Source of the DNA: a virus
Direction: 5' to 3' (one strand)
Virus record (IMG/VR): IMGVR_UViG_3300035670_000231
Span: 1 to 59,677 of that record
Length of the DNA: 59,677 nucleotides
Numbering within the stretch: the stretch's first letter is position 1; each line of letters starts with the position of its first letter. The position numbers and the translations under genes are program-made. The notes beneath the pieces are model-generated. The model was given only the letters and a program-made list of their open reading frames with translations, was not told the origin of the DNA and did no database searches. This document shows positions 8,166-37,600 of this stretch, piece after piece.

Positions 8166-8519
8166 TCAACGGAAGACGGTGACAAAGTTGTTTACGCCAT
8201 CCAGCGATGTGGTATATGTGCGATCACCTGTTCCAACACGGAAAGCAGATGTTGTTTGGCTGATGCGCTGCATTTGTCCAGCACCAGTAGCCCCGTCCGA
8301 ATAAAGTGATGCCGCATAGTTTGCGTCCGTCAGCGCGCTTGTAAAATTCACCGTGTAGTCGCCCGTGCCATTGTCGGTAATACTGCTCACGTTGAGACTT
8401 GCTCTAATCGCCACCGTCCCGGTGCCGTTGAAGTTGACCCAAGCCTTGGCGATGCCGGCCGAGTTCAAGAGGTCACCGCCGGTGCGGTTCTGGATGCTGT
8501 CGACGCGAAGGGTGCTCAC
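8166..8519 (-). CDS. Fibre-domain paralogue 3 (117 aa)
   Basis: Contains the shared core AWVNFNGTGTVAIRASLNVS followed by SITDNGTGDYTVNF. This beta-rich domain is common at the ends of phage fibres. It is the third of three tandem genes (also 8541-8951 and 8961-9332), each beginning MSTL and ending VFR or IFR. GC is visibly lower than in the neighbours (AT-rich stretch 8105-8400), suggesting a recently exchanged segment. Confidence 0.8.
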   Translation of the reverse strand: MSTLRVDSIQNRTGGDLLNSAGIAKAWVNFNGTGTVAIRASLNVSSITDNGTGDYTVNFTSALTDANYAASLYSDGATGAGQMQRISQTTSAFRVGTGDRTYTTSLDGVNNFVTVFR

Positions 8520-8540: not shown

Positions 8541-8951
8541 TCAACGGAAAATCGCGACGCCGCCCTGCTCCGCGTCATAAGCGCCAGCATTCGGGCTGTA
8601 TGGGTTGAAGTTCGTGATCCTGACGGCCGATGCTGTCTTCACCGTTGGCGTCGTTGTCCCGGAGTTGGTGACGAATGCGGAATACATGGTCCAAGTAGTC
8701 CCGGTGATCGCGCCTGGGTTCTGAAAGGCCACGACGTAGTTTGCGTCTGCCAAGGCGCTCGCAAAGTTCACCGTGTAGTCTCCTGCGCCGTTGTCGGTGA
8801 TGCTGGAGACATTGAAGCTGGCGCGGATGGCGACGGTGCCGGTGCCGTTGAAATTGACCCAGGCCTTCGCCGAGCCGTCGACCACAGTATTGGTCGGCAC
8901 GGACTTCGAGCCGTCGGCGTTGGCCAGGGTCGCGATGCGAAGGGTGCTCAT
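8541..8951 (-). CDS. Fibre-domain paralogue 2 (136 aa)
   Basis: Same architecture as its neighbours: MSTLRIATLANADGSKSVPT at the start, the shared AWVNFNGTGTVAIRASFNVS core, and a variable C-terminal region (ALADANYVVAFQNPGAITGT). The conserved core with a divergent tail is typical of receptor-contact modules swapped between phages. Confidence 0.8.
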   Translation of the reverse strand: MSTLRIATLANADGSKSVPTNTVVDGSAKAWVNFNGTGTVAIRASFNVSSITDNGAGDYTVNFASALADANYVVAFQNPGAITGTTWTMYSAFVTNSGTTTPTVKTASAVRITNFNPYSPNAGAYDAEQGGVAIFR

Positions 8952-8960
8952 GGCGGGCTT

Positions 8961-9332
8961 TCAGCGGAAGACGACAGCGGTAAGGTCGGCATTGTCGGTG
9001 CCGGCCGTGCCGCTCTGCGCCGTGCCGAAGCGGAAGCCGGAGGTCGTCGGCGCCACGCGCACGCCGTTCGTCGGGCTGCCGAACAGGTAGAAGTTCTTCG
9101 TGGCCGTGGAGCCGCCGAAGCCGTGGCAGACCAGCGCCGCGTAGTCCGCGTCCGGCAGGGCGGTGGCGAAGTTGACCGTGTAATCCCCGGCGCCGTGATC
9201 GGTGATCGAGGAGACGTTGCCCGAGGCGCGGATCGCCACCGTCCCGGTGCCGTTGAAGTTCACCCAGGCGCGGGCGGTGAAGCGCTCGACGCCCGAGGCA
9301 TCCTGCAGGGTGTTGACCTTCAGCGTGGACAT
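8961..9332 (-). CDS. Fibre-domain paralogue 1 (123 aa)
   Basis: First of the tandem trio in transcription order. MSTLKVNTLQDASGVERFTA, the AWVNFNGTGTVAIRASGNVS core, and a distinct C-terminal half (ALVCHGFGGSTATKNFYLFG). The N-terminal MSTLKVNTLQ resembles the start of the repeated domain in many fibres. Likely a trimeric fibre tip or accessory subunit; the target is unknown. Confidence 0.8.
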   Translation of the reverse strand: MSTLKVNTLQDASGVERFTARAWVNFNGTGTVAIRASGNVSSITDHGAGDYTVNFATALPDADYAALVCHGFGGSTATKNFYLFGSPTNGVRVAPTTSGFRFGTAQSGTAGTDNADLTAVVFR

Positions 9333-9342
9333 GCTGGCGCTC

Positions 9343-10344
9343 TCAAACGATGGCCCAGACGGCGCCGGACTCGACCGTCACCGTGAAGCCGTTGTTGATG
9401 GTGATCGGGCCGGCGCTCAGGCCGTTGAGGCCCGAGGTGATCGTGATGTTCTCGGCGATGGTGTTGCTGTTGTAGGCGATCGCCTTGGTCGCCGCCGTGC
9501 CCAGGTACTGTCCGCCAGCGGCCGGCGCTTGGCTTACCCAGGCGCTGCCGTTGGAGGTCAGGACATTGCCGGCCGTGCCGGGGGTCACGTTGGCCAGGGC
9601 GCCGATCTCGGAAAGCGACCACGAGACGTTCGAAGAGCCGTTCACCGACTTGCCGGTCGAGCCGATCGTCAGGGTCCGGCTGCTGCCCCAGTACGAGGTG
9701 ATGATGTTGGCGGTGCCAAAGAAAGTCGTGCCGTTGATCGTGCGGCCGGTCTGGAGCTGCGTCGCCGAGCTGGCGTTGCCCGAGAGCGAGCCCGAGAAGG
9801 TCGAGCAGGTCAGGACGTTGGTTCCGGGATTGAAGCTCAGCCCGCCGTTGTCGGTGTAGAGCGAGCGGTTGCCGTTGGCGTTGCCGGCCGGGTTGCAGTA
9901 CGGGACCGGGTAGGCCACGCTGTCGTCCGGGCTCTCGGTGATGTAGAGCTGCGTGGCCGACGCGGCATTGCCCGTGATCGAGATGCCCCAGGTGCCGGAC
10001 GCGCCGGTGCCGTTCAGCGGCGCCAGCCCGGAGCGGGCATCGGCCTTGATGTCGTCGAGCAGGGCGCGCACCAGCCGAAGCTCGACGATGGCCCCGGCCG
10101 AGAAGGCCTGCGCCGTGGTCCCGTCCTGGCCGCGCACGATGGTAAAAGTGTCGGTCGAGCGCGCCGTGACCTTCACGATCTCAACGTTGCCGGCGTTGTC
10201 GTCGAGCGTGACGTAGAAGTGATCGGCTATCGAGATAACCGGGAACAGGACGCCCTGGCCACTGGCCACGGCCATCGAGGTGGCCGAGTTGGTGATGCCG
10301 GCAGCGAGCGTCGAGACGGCGCGGTTGGTGTAGAGCGCGGCCAT
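9343..10344 (-). CDS. Tail-fibre-like protein (333 aa)
   Basis: The N-terminal ~95 residues (NRAVSTLAAGITNSATSMAV ... IVRGQDGTTAQAFSAGA) are a phage fibre module widely seen in proteobacterial phages; Gly/Asn/Ser/Thr-rich beta-strand repeats follow (GNASSATQLQTGRTINGTTF), and the end (ENITITSGLNGLSAGPITIN, then VESGAVWAIV) is a typical fibre C-terminus. It starts on the last base of the preceding long gene, so the two are coupled. Confidence 0.85.
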   Translation of the reverse strand: MAALYTNRAVSTLAAGITNSATSMAVASGQGVLFPVISIADHFYVTLDDNAGNVEIVKVTARSTDTFTIVRGQDGTTAQAFSAGAIVELRLVRALLDDIKADARSGLAPLNGTGASGTWGISITGNAASATQLYITESPDDSVAYPVPYCNPAGNANGNRSLYTDNGGLSFNPGTNVLTCSTFSGSLSGNASSATQLQTGRTINGTTFFGTANIITSYWGSSRTLTIGSTGKSVNGSSNVSWSLSEIGALANVTPGTAGNVLTSNGSAWVSQAPAAGGQYLGTAATKAIAYNSNTIAENITITSGLNGLSAGPITINNGFTVTVESGAVWAIV

Positions 10345-13300
10345 TACGCGGCCTCCCGGAAGTCAAGATAGAGCACTTCGACCGTGGCCGTGATCTGGCT
10401 TGGGGCCACCTCGGCCGAGGCGCCGCCATAGGTTACCGCATCGAGCTGCGCCACGATGGCCGACGGCTGCACCTCGGCGGTGATGGCCGAAGCCGGCAGC
10501 GCGGCGGTGATCTCGGAAGGGGCTGCGGCAGCGCCGGTGCCGACGAAGGCGTTGATCTCGGCGAGATAGGTCGAGACGATCCGCCCGTTCGCCGTGGCCA
10601 GCGCCAGGGCCGGGCCGGCGATCGGCTTGGCCAGGGCAAGGCCGGCGGACGCGGCGGCGGTGGCCGAGCCGGAGCCCGAGGCGACGAGCTGCAGGCGGGC
10701 TGCCCCGGACGCCGAGGCCGTGGCCTGCACCCCCGCGGCGATCGCCTTGGCAAGGGCGAGGTCGGCCGATGCCGTGGCCGTTGCCGTGAGGGCGGCGGCC
10801 AGGACGAGGCCCACACGGATCTCGGCGGCGGCCGTGGCCGAGGCGTCGAGGTCTCCGCCGACCAGCTTCCCAATCGCCAGGGAAGCCTCGGCCGAGGCGA
10901 CGGCGGCGGCTGATCCGGCGAGCGGGACGACCAGCTCGGCCTGCCCGGCGACCGCCACGGTGACGGCGGCAGAGCCGGCCAGCGGCACGGCCAGATCGAG
11001 GCCGGCGTCGATCGCCGCGGCGGCGGCAGCAGCGCCTGCCAGCGGCTTGACGAGGTCGGCAGCACCGGCGGCGTCCACCTGGGCGGCGACGGCCGCCTGC
11101 AGGAGCTTGCCCAGGACGGCGGCCGAGCTGGTCTGCGCCACGGCCTCGGCGGCGGCTTCGATGCGCTTGTCCAGGGCGGCGCTGGCCGTCGTCTCGCCCG
11201 AGCCGGTGGCGGAGGCCTCCAGGGCCTTGTCCACGGCCACGGCGCCAGCGGTGGCGCCCGCAACGGCGGCAGCTCCAGCGAGCCGGAAATCGAGCGAGAT
11301 CGCTCCGGCGGCTTCGACGCTGGCGGCGGCAGCCCCGGCGACGACGAAGGCCACGACCGCATCGGCCTGGGCATCGGCTGCGGCATCGGCGGCGCCGGCC
11401 AGCGGCTTCGCTATGGCGAGGTCGGCGGCGGCGGCAGCGCCGCCCGCCACGGCCGCACCCAGGTCCTTGTCCACCGCGATCGAGCCGGCGCAGGCGCTGG
11501 CGGCGGCGGCGGATCCATCGAGCGGCTTGGCGATGCCCAGCGTGCCCGCCACAGCCCCGCTGGCGGCGATCGCGGCATCGAGGCGATAGGCGACCCCTAC
11601 GTCCCCTGCGGCAGCGGCCGTGGCGGCCACGTCGGCGGCCATGGGCACGTCGAGGTCGATGGCCCCTGCGGCCTGCGCCGTGGCTTCGGACGAGCCGTCG
11701 GCCCGGAAGGCCACCAGAACGGCGCCGTCTGCCGAGGCGGACGCGATCGAGTCCCCCGCCAGCGGCTTGTCCAGCAGCGCCGAGGCGTCGGCGATGGCGA
11801 CGACCGAGCCTGCGGCGGCGATGGTCTTCTGCAGCTCAGCGCTGGCGGTCGTGGTGCCGGATGCCTGCAGCTCGGCGGACAGCGCCTTGTCGGTGACGAG
11901 GCCGGCGGTGACCGTGGTGGAAGCCTGCGCCGAGGCCTCCAGCGGCTTGACGGCGGCGACATCGGCAGCGGCGGCGGCGGTGGCATCGAGAGCGGCCGAC
12001 AGCTCCTTGACGAGGTCCAGGGCGGCGTCCGCGCTGGCCGAGGCCGAGGCGCCGCCAGCCACGGCCTGGGCCACCAGGAGCGTGCCGGAGGCCGAGGCGG
12101 TGGCCGTGATGTCGACGGCGACCGGCGTCTCCAGGTCGAGCGAGGCGAACGCCGCGGCGGTGCCGGTGAGGGCGCCGGCAAGCGGGCGATCGACGACGGC
12201 CGATCCGGCGGCCGCGGCCTGGGCATCGAGGTCGGCAGCGAGGACGAAGGCGACCTGGGCGGCGGCCGAGGCCTGCGCGGTGGCCGATGCCGAACCGGCG
12301 ACGGGCTTGGCCAGCGCGAGGTCGGCTTCAGCCGCGGCGGACCCGGCGGCAGCGCCTTCCACGACGGCGGCGATCGATGCCGAGCCGCTGGCCGTGGCGG
12401 TGGCCTGCAGCGCTCCGGCGACGGCCTTGACCGACTGCAGGTCGGCCGTGGCGGCGGCCGTGGCGCTGCCCGAGCCGGCGACCTCGAAGGCGACGACCGG
12501 CGCTGCCGCGGTCGTGGCGGTTGCGCTGATCGAGGCGGCAAGCGGGCGGTCGGCGACGGCGGCGCCAGCGACGGCAGCACTGGCCGTGGCATCGGCGTCC
12601 AGCGGCTTGCCCAGGGCGACGGCTGCGGCGGCTGCTGCGGTTGCGGCGAGCGCGGCCTGGAGCGGCTTGGCCGCGACGACGTTTGCAGCAGCGGCAGCGG
12701 CGACGGCCGCGGCGGCCCCGAGCTGCTTCGTGACATCGAGGGCGGCGCTGGTGGCGGCGGTGGCCTGGGCGGAGCCGGCGACGGCGAACCCGACCAGCGC
12801 CGTGCCGGCCACGCTGGCGGAGGCCTGGGCCGAGCCGGCCAGCCGGTAATCGACGCTCGTGTCGGCCGCGGCCGAGACTGTGCCCGTAGCGGCGCCGTCG
12901 ACCCGGAAGGCGACCCTGGCGGCAGCGTTGGCGCTGACCGAAGCGGCGATCGAGGCGCTCAGCAGCTTGCCGAGGAGAGCGGCGGAAAAGGTCTGCGCAA
13001 CCGCGAAGCCGGCGGCGCTGATGGTCTTCTGCAGGTCCGCCTGGGCCGAGGTGGCGCCCTCGGACGTGGCGGCGCCGGCCAGGGCCTTGAGCGTGGCGAG
13101 GTCGCCTGCGGTGGCGACGCTGGCGGCGAGCGAGCCGGCGAGCGGGCGCTCGGCCACGGCGAAGCCAGTGACGCTTGCCGAGGCGGATCCCGCGCCAGCG
13201 ACCACGTAGGCCACCCGGATCGCGGCGGCGGCGTTGCCGGTGGCGGTGATCGAGCCGGCGACGGGCTTCGTCGCAGCCAGGGAGGCGCTGGCGCTGGCGG

Positions 13301-14108
13301 TTCCGGCCAGGGTGCCGCCCAGCGGCTTGGCGATGGTGACGGCGCCCGAGGAGACGGCGCTCGCGGCCGAGGCGCCCGCCAGGGGCTTGGCGATCGCGAC
13401 CTGGGCGGCCGCGGCGGCCGAGCTGCTGATCGAGCCCGCGATGGTCAGCGCGGCTACGGCCGAGGCCGAGACGGTAACCGAGCCGCTGATCGAGGCGGCA
13501 AGCGGGCGCTCGGCCACCGCCAGCCCGGCGAGCGAGGCCGTGGCGGTGATCGAGGCGGCGAGCGGCTTCTCTGCGGCTACGGCGCCAGAGACGTCGGCCG
13601 TGGCCGTGGCGTCAGCGGCCAGGGGCTTGGCGAGGCTCGCCTCGGCGGAGGCGTCTGCCGTGGCCGTAGGCTCGCCGGACAGCTCCTTGGTGATGCCGAG
13701 CGAGGCAAGGGTGCTGGCATCGCCGGCGAGCGCGCCCGCCAGGGGCTTGCTGGCATCCAGGGCGGCGGTGGCGCTGGCACTGCTGGCGACAGAGCCGTCC
13801 ACGGGCTTGGCGGCGTCGATCGCGCCGCTCGTGTCGGCCGATGCGGCGGCAGAGCCCTCGACCGGCTTGGTGAGGCTGAAGGCGCCGCTGGCGCTCGCCG
13901 ATGCGGCAATCGAGGCGGCCGCCGGCTTGTCGATCGCCAGGGCGGCGCTGACGTCCGCGGAAGCGGCAGCGGCGCCGGCCAGCGCCTTGGTGACGCTGAG
14001 CGACGCCGCGACGGCAGCCGATGCGGCCAGTCCGGCAGCCAGATCGACCGGCTGGCCGGACGACGCGTTGAGGGCGCCGGAATTGAGCGGCCGTGCGTTG
14101 ATCAGCAT
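10344..14108 (-). CDS. Giant Ala/Ser-rich 20-residue-repeat protein (1254 aa)
   Basis: After an N-terminal block (MLINARPLNSGALNASSGQP) the protein is some 55 near-perfect 20-aa units of the form KPLAGSxxAxAxASAALxVA, alternating with FVVAGAA-type and EKTI/RPLAAS-type variants, up to about residue 1180. The C-terminal ~75 residues (YLAEINAFVGTGAAAAPSEI ... SAEVAPSQITATVEV) are non-repetitive. The unit resembles a short beta-strand pair or solenoid turn. The gene lies between a fibre-type protein and another fibre, so a long virion appendage or shaft is the natural guess. Composition is Ala ~45%, with few charged residues and no Cys or Trp. The exact function is unknown. Confidence 0.82.
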   Translation of the reverse strand: MLINARPLNSGALNASSGQPVDLAAGLAASAAVAASLSVTKALAGAAAASADVSAALAIDKPAAASIAASASASGAFSLTKPVEGSAAASADTSGAIDAAKPVDGSVASSASATAALDASKPLAGALAGDASTLASLGITKELSGEPTATADASAEASLAKPLAADATATADVSGAVAAEKPLAASITATASLAGLAVAERPLAASISGSVTVSASAVAALTIAGSISSSAAAAAQVAIAKPLAGASAASAVSSGAVTIAKPLGGTLAGTASASASLAATKPVAGSITATGNAAAAIRVAYVVAGAGSASASVTGFAVAERPLAGSLAASVATAGDLATLKALAGAATSEGATSAQADLQKTISAAGFAVAQTFSAALLGKLLSASIAASVSANAAARVAFRVDGAATGTVSAAADTSVDYRLAGSAQASASVAGTALVGFAVAGSAQATAATSAALDVTKQLGAAAAVAAAAAANVVAAKPLQAALAATAAAAAAVALGKPLDADATASAAVAGAAVADRPLAASISATATTAAAPVVAFEVAGSGSATAAATADLQSVKAVAGALQATATASGSASIAAVVEGAAAGSAAAEADLALAKPVAGSASATAQASAAAQVAFVLAADLDAQAAAAGSAVVDRPLAGALTGTAAAFASLDLETPVAVDITATASASGTLLVAQAVAGGASASASADAALDLVKELSAALDATAAAAADVAAVKPLEASAQASTTVTAGLVTDKALSAELQASGTTTASAELQKTIAAAGSVVAIADASALLDKPLAGDSIASASADGAVLVAFRADGSSEATAQAAGAIDLDVPMAADVAATAAAAGDVGVAYRLDAAIAASGAVAGTLGIAKPLDGSAAAASACAGSIAVDKDLGAAVAGGAAAAADLAIAKPLAGAADAAADAQADAVVAFVVAGAAAASVEAAGAISLDFRLAGAAAVAGATAGAVAVDKALEASATGSGETTASAALDKRIEAAAEAVAQTSSAAVLGKLLQAAVAAQVDAAGAADLVKPLAGAAAAAAAIDAGLDLAVPLAGSAAVTVAVAGQAELVVPLAGSAAAVASAEASLAIGKLVGGDLDASATAAAEIRVGLVLAAALTATATASADLALAKAIAAGVQATASASGAARLQLVASGSGSATAAASAGLALAKPIAGPALALATANGRIVSTYLAEINAFVGTGAAAAPSEITAALPASAITAEVQPSAIVAQLDAVTYGGASAEVAPSQITATVEVLYLDFREAA
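10570..13990 (-). repeat. Tandem 60-bp coding repeat array
   Basis: The DNA of the 1254-aa gene is periodic at 60 bp (20 codons): a GGCTTGGCGA or GGCTTGACGA-type motif (minus strand: encoding xKPLAG) recurs about every 60 bases, often in the same column of successive 60-base blocks. Units are diverged, not identical, so the array is old or under protein-level selection. Confidence 0.85.
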
Positions 14109-14127: not shown

Positions 14128-14562
14128 TCAGGCGAAGGTGATGGTCAGCGACCCGGCCGGGAACGACACGGTGTCGCCCTGGTTGATGGTCTTGGCGACG
14201 GCGAGCGTGCCGTAGAAGAGCATGTTGCCGCTCGATGCGGCATCGTAGATGGCGAAGTGGGAGGCGGTTCCCCAGGTGCCGGACGGCGTGGCGAAGGTGA
14301 TGGCAGCGTTGTTGCTCGTCTGGCCGCCAGTGCCGCTGGAGGCCAAGGTGGAGCCCGCCGACTGCGTGCCGGCCCAGTTGGCCAGCGACGAGGTGACGGC
14401 GACCCGGCTGTAGTTGTTGCCGGAGATCTCGGTGCCGCCGCCCGTATCGCTCGGCGCGGACGTCAGCAGGCCGATGTAAAGCGTGGCGGGCGCGGTAAGC
14501 GTCTGGGCCCGGAACAAGTGGTCGACCAGCTTGTTCTCCAGGTAGTTCGTCAAGGCGGACAT
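14128..14562 (-). CDS. Fibre/appendage structural protein (144 aa)
   Basis: Opens MSALTNYLENKLVDHLFRAQ, the hallmark of a common siphovirus structural family (YLENxLLDHxFR), with LYIGLLTSAPSDTGGGTEIS, then SFPAGSLTITFA at the end. It is predicted as a beta-sandwich. Homologues are usually annotated as tail-fibre or appendage proteins. Preceded in the operon by the BppU-like gene. Confidence 0.8.
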   Translation of the reverse strand: MSALTNYLENKLVDHLFRAQTLTAPATLYIGLLTSAPSDTGGGTEISGNNYSRVAVTSSLANWAGTQSAGSTLASSGTGGQTSNNAAITFATPSGTWGTASHFAIYDAASSGNMLFYGTLAVAKTINQGDTVSFPAGSLTITFA

Positions 14563-14584: not shown

Positions 14585-14914
14585 TCAGTTGAACTGGGCG
14601 CGGACGGCGAACTTCAGGGGCTCGTAGACCGTCTGTTTTTCGCCATCGAAGTCGATCTCGATCTCGCCCTCGTAGGCCCCGGGCTCGACGTCCAAGGTGT
14701 TGCCCGGAAAGTTGAACGACACCTCGCCCGCGGTGCCGCCGTTGATCTTGGTGCAGACGATCGTCGACAGGACGGCCGTCTCGCCGGCCTGCCGGAAGTG
14801 CATCACCACCGTGGCGCTGCTCACGTCCATGGGCGTGCCGTCCGCCTGCTTCAGGGTCAGGCGGATGTACGGGCGGTTGTCGCCCTGGACGAGCTTGATC
14901 TTGCCGGTGCTCAC
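14585..14914 (-). CDS. BppU-like baseplate/appendage N-domain protein (109 aa)
   Basis: KIKLVQGDNRPYIRLTLKQA, then GTPMDVSSATVVMHFR and EPGAYEGEIEI are the pattern of the N-terminal domain of lactococcal-type BppU and similar baseplate proteins (QGD..P.....L....G.P.DL..A.V.F..R). Here it is a stand-alone domain of normal length, between portal and the fibre proteins. It probably anchors the appendage to the virion. Confidence 0.78.
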   Translation of the reverse strand: MSTGKIKLVQGDNRPYIRLTLKQADGTPMDVSSATVVMHFRQAGETAVLSTIVCTKINGGTAGEVSFNFPGNTLDVEPGAYEGEIEIDFDGEKQTVYEPLKFAVRAQFN

Positions 14915-14941: not shown

Positions 14942-16297
14942 TTATGCCGGCAGGGCCGCGTCATCGGCGGATTCGCCGTCCGGAGTGAACGGGTCCTCGC
15001 CGCCCCCCTCCTCGGGCGCCGGCGGCAGGCCTGCGGCCTCGCGCAGATGGTTCTCCAGATCGCGGTCGGGGAAGAGCGGGGCACCAGCCGACGCGAGCGT
15101 CTGGATGAAGGTCGCCAGCTCGCCGAGGTTGGGCCGCTCCAGATCGCCCGGGACCAGCGTCGGCATGAACTCGGGCGGCAGGCCGTTCAGACGCCAGAGC
15201 CTGGGCAGCAGGTGCCGGTTCAGCGTGTCGGACATGGCCTGCAGGAACCCGCCGATAGCGGTGGCGAAGAGTGCCGTCTTGTCCGAGCTGAGCGCGAAGG
15301 AGCCGACGCTCTGCTGGCCGAGGAAGATGAAGTCCGCCAGGACCGAGGTGGCGATCGCCCGGTTGTAGCGGTCGACGACCTTGGACGTGTCGAAGGTGCG
15401 CGAGCCGCCGGTGGACAGGAGCTTGAAGTCGAAGAGCAGGTTGCCGCTGGAATCGCGGTCGGACGGGATGATGATCCCCTCCTGGCGATCGCGGCGCACG
15501 TTAGTCACCATCTGCTGCCACGCCAGATAGACCGCCCGGTCGAGCGGATCCGCCTCGGGGCTCATGTAGGTCGACGGGATCGCCGCCACGGGCAGGCCGG
15601 CGAGGTCGCGCTCGATGCCGACCCCCTCGATCTCCTCGATCCGCTTCTTGAAGTACCAGGGCCGGTAGGCGTTGCGCAGAATCGACCGGCCCTCGGGGTT
15701 GTTGCGCTCGGGCGTGGTGCGGAAGAGCAGCAGCTTCTCGATCGGCAGGTAGATCATGGCCCCGGCCCAGGGCTGCTGCCACAGGCCGTTCAGCGAGTCG
15801 TCCTCCGGGTCGAAGTCCCAGCGCCAGATGGTCTGCTGCCCGCGCAGGGCGATTGTGCGAATGCCGATCTTGCCGTCGGTGTAAGCCGAGCGGGCGGCGC
15901 CGTCGCGGGCGTTGGGGCCGAGGCGGCGCTTCCAGACGATCTCCATGGGCGCGTAGCCGTAGGTGAACATCGAGCAGGCCTCGGCCACGACGTCGCTCCA
16001 GGGCACGCTCATGTCGGCCAGGACCTCCTCGACGAAGGTCTTGGCGGCATCGGCCTCGGGCGATTCGTCGATGGCCTGGACGTTCCACTTGGCCTGCCGG
16101 ATCAGCATCGTCACCGCGAACAGGATGGCGCCGACCACCGGGTCGTTGTCGGCCATCTCGCGGTAGGTGCGGGCGCCGCGGACGCCCTGCAGCTCCTTGA
16201 GGTACTCCTCGGAGACGAAGCCGCCGAACTGCCGCAGGCCGGTCGAGCCGATGGTGGCCGGGTCGAACTTCAGCTTGTAGGGGGTCGCTTCGGCCAT
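14942..16297 (-). CDS. Portal protein (DUF935-like)
   Basis: 451 aa. The N-terminal region (QFGGFVSEEYLKELQGVRGA, YREMADNDPVVGAILFAVTM, WNVQAIDESPEADAA) and the middle part (EIVWKRRLG, LLFRTTPERNNPEGRS, LRNAYRPWYFKKRIEEIEG) match the DUF935/Mu gp29-like portal family. Twelve copies form the DNA-entry vertex. It follows the terminase genes in the canonical order. Confidence 0.88.
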   Translation of the reverse strand: MAEATPYKLKFDPATIGSTGLRQFGGFVSEEYLKELQGVRGARTYREMADNDPVVGAILFAVTMLIRQAKWNVQAIDESPEADAAKTFVEEVLADMSVPWSDVVAEACSMFTYGYAPMEIVWKRRLGPNARDGAARSAYTDGKIGIRTIALRGQQTIWRWDFDPEDDSLNGLWQQPWAGAMIYLPIEKLLLFRTTPERNNPEGRSILRNAYRPWYFKKRIEEIEGVGIERDLAGLPVAAIPSTYMSPEADPLDRAVYLAWQQMVTNVRRDRQEGIIIPSDRDSSGNLLFDFKLLSTGGSRTFDTSKVVDRYNRAIATSVLADFIFLGQQSVGSFALSSDKTALFATAIGGFLQAMSDTLNRHLLPRLWRLNGLPPEFMPTLVPGDLERPNLGELATFIQTLASAGAPLFPDRDLENHLREAAGLPPAPEEGGGEDPFTPDGESADDAALPA

Positions 16298-16315: not shown

Positions 16316-17581
16316 TCACGCGCCGCCGAGCCACGGCGAGATCCGGGTGCCGCCGCCCGGAGCCATCGCGCTGAACATCGCGGGCGACAGTTGGCGGTGC
16401 TTCTCGACCGCCAGGGCCAGCGCCATGACGCAGTCGTCATGATACCCGTCGGGGGCCGAGTAGCGGACACCGGTCCGCGTGTAGCGGTACTCGAAGTTCT
16501 CCAGCTCGGCGATCACCGGCCCGGCCATGATGCCCAGCTCGTGGCCCTGGATGGCGACGGCCAAGCCCTCCATGAGCTGCTGCTTCGTGGTGGCGGTGAA
16601 CTTGAAGCCCTCGATGGTGCGCCGCTTCTGGGACAGGCCCTCGACGACGGGGTCGCCCACGCCGGTGGAGTCCAAGAGCGTCGGCGCCTTGCCGACGAGG
16701 CCCAGGATCCGCTCGGCGGTCTTGTCCCAGGGCAGCTTCTGCCAGCGGTCGAAGCCAGTCATCTGGCGGGCCTTGTCCAGGCCGATCAGCACCGTCCAGT
16801 CGATCGACTTGGCGAGGTCGCCGCCGACGCACACGGTGGGCGCGGCCGACAGCCTGGTGATCGTGCAGGCGTCGATGTGCTTGAGCCCGAACGGGTTGCC
16901 GTCGTCGTCGCTGGGCTCGGCGAGGTACAGCTCGCGGAACACGTTCTCGGGCAGCAGGCGCTGCGCGTCCTCGATCTCCTCGCGGGCGAGCACGCCACCG
17001 GCCACGGCGTCCCAGGCGGTGAGCTTGGCGTAGGACATGCCGGGCTCGCCGGCCTCGGCCTTGCGGGCGAGCTTGTAGTGCCAGTTCGACCGGCCCTTGA
17101 CGTTGCCGATGATCCGCACCGGGCCGCGGGTGGCGGTCAGGGTCGAGCGGACCGCGATCCATGACTCCTCGCGGCAGCGCGAGGCCTCGTCGACGACCGC
17201 GGCATAGACGTCCTCGCCGTACAGGTTGTCAGGCTTCTCGGCCGACTTGAACCAGAGCGTGGCGCCGTTGGGCAGCGCCAGGGTGAGTTCCCCCTCGTTG
17301 GCCCGGTAGAGCGCTCGCGGCAGCCCGCGCTTGATCCGGCGGAAGGCGATCTTGGCCTGGGGGTAGACCGGGGCGACCCACCAGTAGGAGCGGCCGGGGG
17401 CGCCGTGGATCACCGCCTGCTCGACCAGCCACGCCATGCAGCCGACCGTCTTGCCGGCCTTGGTCGAGGCCTCGATCAGCGCGTAGCGGGCGGCCTGCCC
17501 GTTGACGTCGCGGGCGTCGAAGATGGCCGCCTGCTGCGCCGGGTAGAGCCACGGCCGCTCGTACTCGATGGTGACCGGCAT
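16316..17581 (-). CDS. terL: Terminase large subunit
   Basis: 421 aa ATPase-nuclease that cuts and packages DNA. The Walker A-like loop EASTKAGKTVG (~38-48), Walker B VYAAVVDEAS with catalytic Glu 132, the C motif IIGNVKG near 156, and the RNase H-fold nuclease acids VGGDLAKSIDW (Asp 254), LLDSTGVGD and HDDCVMALALA are all present. Packaging mode (cos, pac or direct repeats) cannot be read from the sequence. Confidence 0.95.
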   Translation of the reverse strand: MPVTIEYERPWLYPAQQAAIFDARDVNGQAARYALIEASTKAGKTVGCMAWLVEQAVIHGAPGRSYWWVAPVYPQAKIAFRRIKRGLPRALYRANEGELTLALPNGATLWFKSAEKPDNLYGEDVYAAVVDEASRCREESWIAVRSTLTATRGPVRIIGNVKGRSNWHYKLARKAEAGEPGMSYAKLTAWDAVAGGVLAREEIEDAQRLLPENVFRELYLAEPSDDDGNPFGLKHIDACTITRLSAAPTVCVGGDLAKSIDWTVLIGLDKARQMTGFDRWQKLPWDKTAERILGLVGKAPTLLDSTGVGDPVVEGLSQKRRTIEGFKFTATTKQQLMEGLAVAIQGHELGIMAGPVIAELENFEYRYTRTGVRYSAPDGYHDDCVMALALAVEKHRQLSPAMFSAMAPGGGTRISPWLGGA

Positions 17582-36166: not shown

Positions 36167-37600
36167 TCAGCGGAAGACCATGACGTGGATCTCGGACGAA
36201 GGGGTGTTGAAGGCGTTGGCCGAGTTGCCGATCTCGACGTCGAAATGGCCGGCGGCCTTCTCGCAGTTGGTCGTGGCGCACACGATACCCTGCGGGTTGG
36301 CACCCTCGAATCGGGCGCTGCCGGACCACGCATATTGGCTGTCTGCCAATTGGGTGATGAAACTGATACGGTAGGCCACGCCGGCCTGCGGGATCACGGA
36401 CGCGACGTTACCGCGGCCGCGCACTTGCACCTTCCGGGTGACATTGCCGGAGGTCGTCAGGCTGCTGGCGGCCTCGACCTGAAAGGTGTTTGCGGTGATG
36501 TTAAAGGCGGTGAAGAAGCCATCGACGCTGCTGCCGCTCGTGAAGTCCAGATAGACCCCTTCTCCGGCAACCACACCGTGGCCGGTGATGGTGATCGTGA
36601 TGGTCGTGCCAGACTGGGAATAGGTCCCGGAGACCTCGACGTTGCTGAAGGTGACCCAGGCGCGGCAGGAGTAGACCGGCGCATCACCTGTTGCGTTGAC
36701 GGTGTTTTTCACCAAAGCGGCGAACGATGCCCTAAACCAGAAAATAGGCGCGCCAGGGCCCAAGCCCGAAGGACTGGAATAAATAAATTCGCCCTCCGCC
36801 TCCGGCACCAACGAGTCGTCAATATCCCCCAGCCCCGTGACGCTGAGCAAGGCTTTGGCGTTCAACGTTGACTTTCCTGTGCCGCCATTGGCCACCGCCA
36901 CCGTCCCGGTAAGCTGGCCGGCCGGCAGCGAGGTCAGACCGGAGCCCGAGCCCGAGATCGGCACGGCGAACGTGGCGCCGGTGGCGCTCACCGTTACCCG
37001 GTCGGTGCCGGCCACGCTCAAGGCCACGGTGCCGCCGGTGCGCGGGTTCGCCACGAAGACGCGGTTGTTCAAGCCGGAGCTGGCCGCACCGAATTGCCCG
37101 TAGGCCACCGAGCCGTCGGCGTTCAGGAAAGCCAGCGCCCGGTCGGCGCCGGTCTCCTGCACGACGAAGTCGCCGCCCGCGATCGAGACCACGCCTTGCG
37201 GGCTTTCGCCGGCACCGAAGGAGAACCGCCCGGTGTTGCTCGCGAACAGGCGCTGCACGCCCGCGATCGCCAGGGCCACCCGGTCGGCGCTGGGCCGGTA
37301 GAAGCCCGTCGTGGCCGAGCCCTGGAAGGCGATCGACGGCGCGCTCACCGAGCCCGCAGGCGCTGCCAGCGTCCCTTCGACGTTGATCGCATAGGCGGCC
37401 GAGAGGTCGGCCCAGGCCGAGCCCGACCACTTCTGCCACTTCTTCGAGGCAGAGTTCCATCGGATCGCGTTGGTCGGCGGGCTCGTGACCGTGGCCACGG
37501 CCGGATCCAGGCCGCGGGCGAGGTCGTCGTCGCGAGCCTTCAGATCGGCCAGAAAGTTGGTGTAGAGGCTGGAGAGGGTCGGGTTTGCCCAGTTGGCCAT
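36167..37600 (-). CDS. Tail-fibre protein downstream of the tail tip
   Basis: 477 aa. N-terminal anchor (ANPTLSSLYTNFLADLKARD, NAIRWNSASKKWQKWSGSAW) as in many siphovirus fibres encoded after J, Gly/Ser/Ala-rich shaft (TVAVANGGTGKSTLNAKALL), and a C-terminal receptor-type domain (YSCRAWVTFSNVEVSGTYSQ, NTPSSEIHVMVF). The stretch 36590-36860 has clearly lower GC (for example GGAATAAATAAATTCGCC), so the distal part is probably recently acquired. Determinant of host range with J. Confidence 0.87.
   Translation of the reverse strand: MANWANPTLSSLYTNFLADLKARDDDLARGLDPAVATVTSPPTNAIRWNSASKKWQKWSGSAWADLSAAYAINVEGTLAAPAGSVSAPSIAFQGSATTGFYRPSADRVALAIAGVQRLFASNTGRFSFGAGESPQGVVSIAGGDFVVQETGADRALAFLNADGSVAYGQFGAASSGLNNRVFVANPRTGGTVALSVAGTDRVTVSATGATFAVPISGSGSGLTSLPAGQLTGTVAVANGGTGKSTLNAKALLSVTGLGDIDDSLVPEAEGEFIYSSPSGLGPGAPIFWFRASFAALVKNTVNATGDAPVYSCRAWVTFSNVEVSGTYSQSGTTITITITGHGVVAGEGVYLDFTSGSSVDGFFTAFNITANTFQVEAASSLTTSGNVTRKVQVRGRGNVASVIPQAGVAYRISFITQLADSQYAWSGSARFEGANPQGIVCATTNCEKAAGHFDVEIGNSANAFNTPSSEIHVMVFR

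Follow-up and report, generated by a model that had tools for sequence, protein, structure and literature searches.

What a virus does with a long protein made of one short unit repeated in strict register is the question raised by P0001, an alanine-rich product of a 59,677-base IMG/VR virus record (IMGVR_UViG_3300035670_000231), taken over its whole length and called the window here. A first-pass annotation placed its gene at 10344-14108, gave it 1254 residues and proposed a long stalk or capsid-tail appendage. Coordinates and length are borne out, with the addition that the open reading frame (ORF) lies on the minus strand and runs from 14108 to 10344. A long virion appendage is also the best reading of the protein, but there is probably more to the mechanism than a regular solenoid stalk. 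We think it probable that P0001 is the string of a bead-chain fibre, carries about one repeat unit per bead and sets the length of the fibre. This reading draws on an exact repeat under coding constraint, on the homology of a neighbouring gene product to a known bead protein, on the genetic linkage of the two genes, and on a shorter counterpart next to a bead that is identical to the one in phage GP4.

An array of 58 units without insertion or deletion

Residues 21-1180 of P0001 form 58 consecutive units of 20 residues with no indel, as expected from the exact 60-bp period noted in the first-pass annotation, whose estimate of about 55 units was slightly low. Identity at lag 20 is 0.331, versus 0.170 ± 0.008 (maximum 0.191) in 200 composition-preserving shuffles, and 59 of 59 sliding windows share one phase. 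GC contents of 0.75, 0.65, and 0.89 at the three codon positions fit coding in the P0001 frame. The KPLAG-type core is conserved, as had been claimed: positions 1 through 5 are K, P, L, A, and G in 34, 26, 34, 35, and 33 of the 58 units, respectively, and 38 units have K or R at position 1. The units are nevertheless diverged rather than identical. Adjacent units agree at a mean of 7 of 20 residues, which argues against recent slippage as the source of the array, and at the DNA level Tandem Repeats Finder detects short arrays only. Older duplications of whole blocks can still be traced in the likeness between five-unit blocks that lie 16 units (52%) or 31 units (51%) apart.

Odd positions of the unit are small or hydrophobic and even positions are variable and polar (mean entropy 1.68 versus 2.42 bits). 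The nine odd positions 3-19 hold 522 residues in all, and D, E, K, R, Q, N, and H do not occur among them. The description of P0001 as nearly uncharged was loose, since the protein has 51 K+R and 92 D+E in 1254 residues; these charged residues are wholly absent from odd positions 3-19. Such strict alternation would be the pattern expected of an extended β strand with one buried face. A charge-parity test across 26 proteins of the family gave a mixed result (z ≥ 2 in 7, below −2 in 1); perfect parity is thus a trait of the P0001 array and less of the family. Three segments of the TSEGATSAQADLQ-KTISAAGFAVAQTFSAALLG type have a distinct two-unit form that is also present in the relatives L088 and L089, and are perhaps a binding site for another component.

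Direct searches with P0001, by tblastn in phages and by a pattern scan of viral contigs, returned zero matches, probably because low-complexity filtering hides the protein, and relatives were therefore sought through the portal and bead genes. Single relatives used as queries found near copies only. The 47 complete proteins with an N-terminal LN motif, P0001 included, represent 26 distinct ones of 300 to 1542 residues. The N-terminus M[LQ]LNxSxLNxxxLNG is common to these 26, more or less diverged, with N9, N14, and G18 almost invariant in a 29-row alignment (A2); 24 of the 26, among them P0001, end in AA or VA. Comparison of repeat number between strains, suggested earlier as a check, shows that array length differs among relatives and that the frame is kept. 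L089 (bead 83% identical) shares 39% identity with P0001, and the gaps lie near multiples of 20 (e.g., 38, 82, 40, 20, 80, 76). In clades of about 600 residues the aligned length is 589-603 over 50-82% identity, so that length is steady within a clade and different between clades. The register of relatives is looser: period 20 is not absolute, and single-residue slips occur in several. In the 23 pairs of relatives listed, dN/dS points to purifying selection, with 0.13-0.31 for the array protein as against 0.03-0.09 for the bead; the former range and the kept frame support the earlier argument that the divergence of the units speaks for function. Ten long array genes scanned together gave zero Pfam matches except for a Gly-rich part of one.

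The bead gene and the GP4 fibre

The gene at 14128-14562, one of two small genes between portal and array, is the key to array function. Its 144-aa product is homologous to gp80, the bead of fibre I of Ralstonia podophage GP4 (Table 1). A relative's model also matches 8jou_a in its bead part (E 3e-5); this chain belongs to the PDB entry 'Fiber I and fiber-tail-adaptor of phage GP4'. The bead may in addition share the T4 gp8/BW3TFN type of fold (7-7-1 chain 9rkv_A versus the bead model, E 0.057, probability 0.93).

Bead and array are linked in relatives. We kept 80 loci of 457 relatives found through the portal and, of those found through the bead, 80 of 392 from viral contigs plus 30 from bacterial genomes, mostly Betaproteobacteria. 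Prophages that carry both a bead and a period-20 gene occur in, for example, Massilia brevitalea (L191) and Nitrosospira NpAV (L184). Loci of at least 5 kb were scored by whether their most periodic ORF has a period of 20 or 40 with z above 5. Among portal-found contigs, 8 of 14 that carry a bead have such an ORF versus 3 of 57 that lack one (Fisher p 3.6e-5); the counts are 64 of 73 for viral and 21 of 28 for bacterial-genome loci found through the bead. Because the sets have contigs in common and hold near copies, they are not to be pooled. This genetic tie to the bead protein of a known bead-chain fibre makes a bead-threading string the more likely reading of P0001.

Arrangements around the bead vary. 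An LN-motif gene neighbours the bead at 58 loci; at 24 of these, L115 and L025 among them, only a single TAA separates the string ORF from a bead ORF in the same frame, and judging from the reading frames, read-through is possible. In Psychrobacillus phage PVJ1 (L005:7402-8427) the gene after the bead encodes first a few 20-residue-like repeats and then a different domain, and may link the bead module with the tail. In L016, L026, and L031 a 109-aa-type gene lies upstream of each of two period-20/21 genes, an arrangement that looks like a duplicated fibre module. At L011:11699-13573 a 624-aa period-18 protein follows a 109-aa-type gene, and a bead was not found there. Small proteins are encoded near other period-20 genes at L014:2186-2587 and L016:12231-12638 (both phrog_3758) and at L032:11328-11723. 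A claim of diverged beads in the bead-negative period-20 contigs L014, L032, and L038 was dropped (hhalign of A4 versus A5: E 0.011, probability 3.8, 26 columns).

P0001 and its bead resemble GP4 fibre I (8jou; gp80 PF23140, gp77 PF23148) in that a homologous bead gene directly precedes a gene for a string-like protein with an LN N-terminus and units of about 20 residues. A 61,129-base viral contig encodes a bead with 100% identity to 8jou_a across 137 residues. This bead is followed by a 325-aa protein (starting MRYALNVAPING, with an LN-type N-terminus), a 568-aa gene, and, by eye, a gp77-adaptor-type ORF; PF23148 was matched in relatives. A dynamic-programming fit finds 11 core units in residues 18-245 of the 325-aa protein, at a spacing of 19-22 except for the last, and likewise 11 units in JC1, BcepIL02, Itty13, and L221 and 11 plus a weak one in CSP3. 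The fits of the GP4-like protein and of L219 ran to 15 segments; we excluded the four beyond residue 245 (GP4-like scores 5.4, −9.2, 15.5, and 6.8) because they are located in the C-terminal region, which is a judgement. As 8jou contains 10 bead chains, along with 3 chains of a 93-aa adaptor, a ratio of one unit per bead monomer fits the GP4 counts. From its position and its units, the 325-aa neighbour of the GP4-like bead would be the GP4 rope. GP4 reportedly has five fibres of five gp80 dimers joined by an elongated rope protein, and these fibres are said to sit on a 15-fold collar at the portal vertex.

The two systems also differ. GP4-type strings have about 11 units spaced by 18-25 residues, whereas each of the 58 units of P0001 is exactly 20 residues long; GP4 is a podophage, whereas the window virus has siphovirus tail genes. 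A gp77-type adaptor (PF23148) was not found among the 14 window genes scanned with Pfam, and equating the 109-aa protein with GP4 gp77 is unsupported (no PF23148 match; hhalign over only 8 columns, E 0.041).

In the mechanism that we favour, the 144-aa PF23140 protein encoded just before the array is the bead. Each 20-residue unit, in extended β form, would bind one bead, its uncharged odd-position face turned toward the bead and its polar even face outward. With about one unit per bead monomer, the ratio suggested by the 11 units and 10 bead chains of GP4, the number of units would act as a ruler for fibre length, and the 58 units of P0001 would thread about 58 beads or 29 dimers. The LN motif and the conserved C-terminal end may fasten the string to a connector, to a distal tip, or to both, with the 109-aa and 333-aa neighbours as candidates. 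The presence of P0001 in the virion, its stoichiometry, and its structure are likewise inferred.

String or stalk

Several findings weigh against the string reading. The GP4 counts are near but not exact, 11 units to 10 bead chains, and BcepMigl has about 7 units. P0001 is homologous to the short GP4-type strings by architecture: JC1_54, Itty13, and the GP4-like contig represent phrog_19041, a virion structural protein family of short strings with units of about 20 residues, and P0001 matches no PHROG at E ≤ 0.1, hence not this one. For the string candidates tried, among them the GP4-like one, the PDB yielded no sequence match, and the GP4 rope may therefore be unmodelled or consist of unknown residues. 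Among the bead-bearing loci, 22 of 115 lack a period-20/40 ORF by our measure; two of these, L031 and its copy L129, do carry period-20 genes, which are outscored by an unrelated ORF, and several others are short contigs. JC1 gp54 is absent from the virion protein list in the accessible text of the JC1 paper, and phiM5_18 is without the note 'detected in phage particle proteome' that its bead neighbour has; on the other side, the string-like genes after the bead in BcepIL02 (gp56) and BcepMigl (gp57) are annotated as virion-associated, which speaks for the string. When the bead and string of a relative were modelled as a read-through product, the bead core was folded (block means 66-88 in the better parts) and the string had a predicted local distance difference test score (pLDDT) of 33-49; given this low confidence and the lack of coordinates, the model says nothing on bead-string contact. 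Finally, AlphaFold2, using 28 relatives, predicts residues 1-240 of P0001 as a regular, self-contained solenoid (mean pLDDT 70, predicted template modelling score 0.60), and VIA-align superimposes the model on the β-helical antifreeze protein 3p4g (Z 21.3, root-mean-square deviation 2.1 over 210 residues).

The last two results are those expected of the main rival, in which P0001 is a self-folding, three-sided β-solenoid stalk of 58 coils that carries the product of the following fibre gene independently of beads. At 0.48 nm per coil the stalk would be about 28 nm long, and the predicted strands, at unit positions 7-11 and 14-19, are the same in each unit. AlphaFold2 is, however, described as folding repeats into unrealistic solenoids in the accessible text of PMC11795689, and the accessible part of the LSH1 report mentions poor β-helical predictions for the protein beside the bead of that phage (PMC13243795). 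Foldseek found zero PDB matches to the array model at E ≤ 0.001 and a single one in BFVD, to an uncharacterised phage protein, and the low pLDDT of the relative's string also counts against a stable solenoid. Prediction of part of the array, which the first-pass annotation had recommended, returned a solenoid that VIA-align likens to 3p4g but that has no Foldseek PDB match at that threshold and comes from a method biased on repeats. The stalk leaves unexplained both the linkage to the bead gene and the pairing of 11 units with 10 beads in GP4, and we consider it unlikely.

Considerably less probable is a homotrimeric β fibre shaft of the triple β-spiral type with 20 residues per layer: the alternation of small or hydrophobic with polar residues and the adjoining tail-fibre genes would suit it, but Pfam and PHROG scans of P0001 matched no fibre-shaft family, and the bead linkage is again left unexplained. 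A flexible, largely disordered spacer or mucin-like linker, with its register a by-product of unequal recombination, agrees with the growth by duplication evident in the block likeness at unit lags 16 and 31 and with an Ala/Ser/Gly-rich composition, but is very improbable given the absence of charged, amide, or His residues from odd positions 3-19 (0 of 522), 58 diverged units without an indel, dN/dS of 0.13-0.31, and near-constant length over 50-91% identity.

Gene neighbourhood and related fibres

In transcription order, the region encodes a small terminase candidate, the large terminase, a Mu-type portal, the 109-aa protein, the 144-aa PF23140 bead, the array, a 333-aa tail-fibre protein, and small tail-fibre paralogues. 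The array was first described as lying between portal and fibre genes, which is correct, yet two small genes separate it from the portal. A tape measure, a GpJ-type tip, and capsid genes are present elsewhere in the record, and thus the virus looks like a siphovirus. The tail-fibre paralogues stand in tandem at 8166-8519, 8541-8951, and 8961-9332 (minus), in addition to 36167-37600; phrog_11355 matches two of the small paralogues and the C-terminus of a second fibre gene, and the third paralogue is a phmmer match. Near the record end, a 1334-aa ORF (55623-59627, minus) has a sub-threshold NUDIX match at its N-terminus only.

Table 1. Features of the array gene and its neighbours in the window
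Feature	Positions	Strand	Basis
Terminase large subunit	16316-17581	−	phrog_2, 8e-28
Portal protein (Portal_Mu, phrog_113)	14942-16297	−	Pfam and PHROG matches
109-aa protein, candidate fibre-to-virion connector	14585-14914	−	phrog_1084, weak BppU_N; role suggested by position
Bead gene, 144 aa, PF23140 (Podophage GP4 fiber I gp80)	14128-14562	−	Pfam 1e-45; PDB 8jou_a 7.9e-17
Candidate string (rope) protein P0001, 1254 aa	10344-14108	−	ORF and translation; period
N-terminal LN motif, residues 1-20 (MLINARPLNSGALNASSGQP)	14049-14108	−	Common to homologues as M[LQ]LNxSxLNxxxLNG
58 units of 20 residues, residues 21-1180	10569-14048	−	Consensus K-P-L-A-G-A/S-A-x-A-S/T-A-x-A-x-A/G-x-L/A-x-L/V-x
Special two-unit segment, copy 1, residues 341-380	12969-13088	−	Unit rows; similar segments in L088, L089
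Special two-unit segment, copy 2, residues 741-780	11769-11888	−	Unit rows
Special two-unit segment, copy 3, residues 961-1000	11109-11228	−	Unit rows
C-terminal non-repeat region, residues 1181-1254	10347-10568	−	AA at end, as in most relatives
Tail-fibre gene, 333 aa, candidate tip	9343-10344	−	phrog_8469, 4e-30; start overlaps array stop by one base

Other phages have comparable assemblies. According to the accessible text of PMC13243795, the gp34-gp35-gp36 module is always found together in LSH1 relatives; gp35 matches the GP4 bead by HHpred, gp36 is Ig-like, and gp34 has a long part that its authors leave unexplained and think possibly repetitive. Unlike P0001, gp34 bears a lyase-like domain, a comparison made with its published description only. 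The garlands of Agrobacterium phages Milano and 7-7-1 and the A511 gp105 and T4 gp8 connectors are bead-string-like assemblies of small dimers (PMC10811340, PMC12796354). PMC10811340 likens the dimers of the Milano garland and of A511 gp105 to beads on a string, with an extended chain crossing them, and calls the string of the Milano garland unclear. In contrast to the P0001 system, garlands sit at the baseplate, and a long repeat string is not among the features described in the accessible parts of these papers (PMC10811340, PMC12796354). The neck fibres of cyanophage A-1(L) are bead chains about 100 nm long near the portal; they differ in that their beads are gp81 trimers (about 14:1:1), and the accessible text reports no string protein (PMC10966104).

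The bead-chain fibre is thus known as a kind; a long, exactly periodic string and a code of one unit to one bead would be new, judging from literature searches that do not reach most subscription journals. A search for 20-residue repeats in phage fibres found nothing relevant among the titles listed, and searches for the GP4 rope brought up no paper on it. We tentatively suggest, with somewhat less conviction than for P0001 itself, that a widespread family of phage proteins encodes fibre length as one unit to one bead and supplies the string of GP4-like fibres, perhaps also of garlands. Bead-chain fibres, so far of about 10 beads, would then reach about 58.

Phages recognise their hosts through fibres, and apart from the tail tape measure it is seldom known what determines fibre length. 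If our reading is true, a string with one unit per bead would provide a ruler open to direct test, would account for the resistance of long array genes to annotation, and could allow the missing string of published bead-chain structures to be named.
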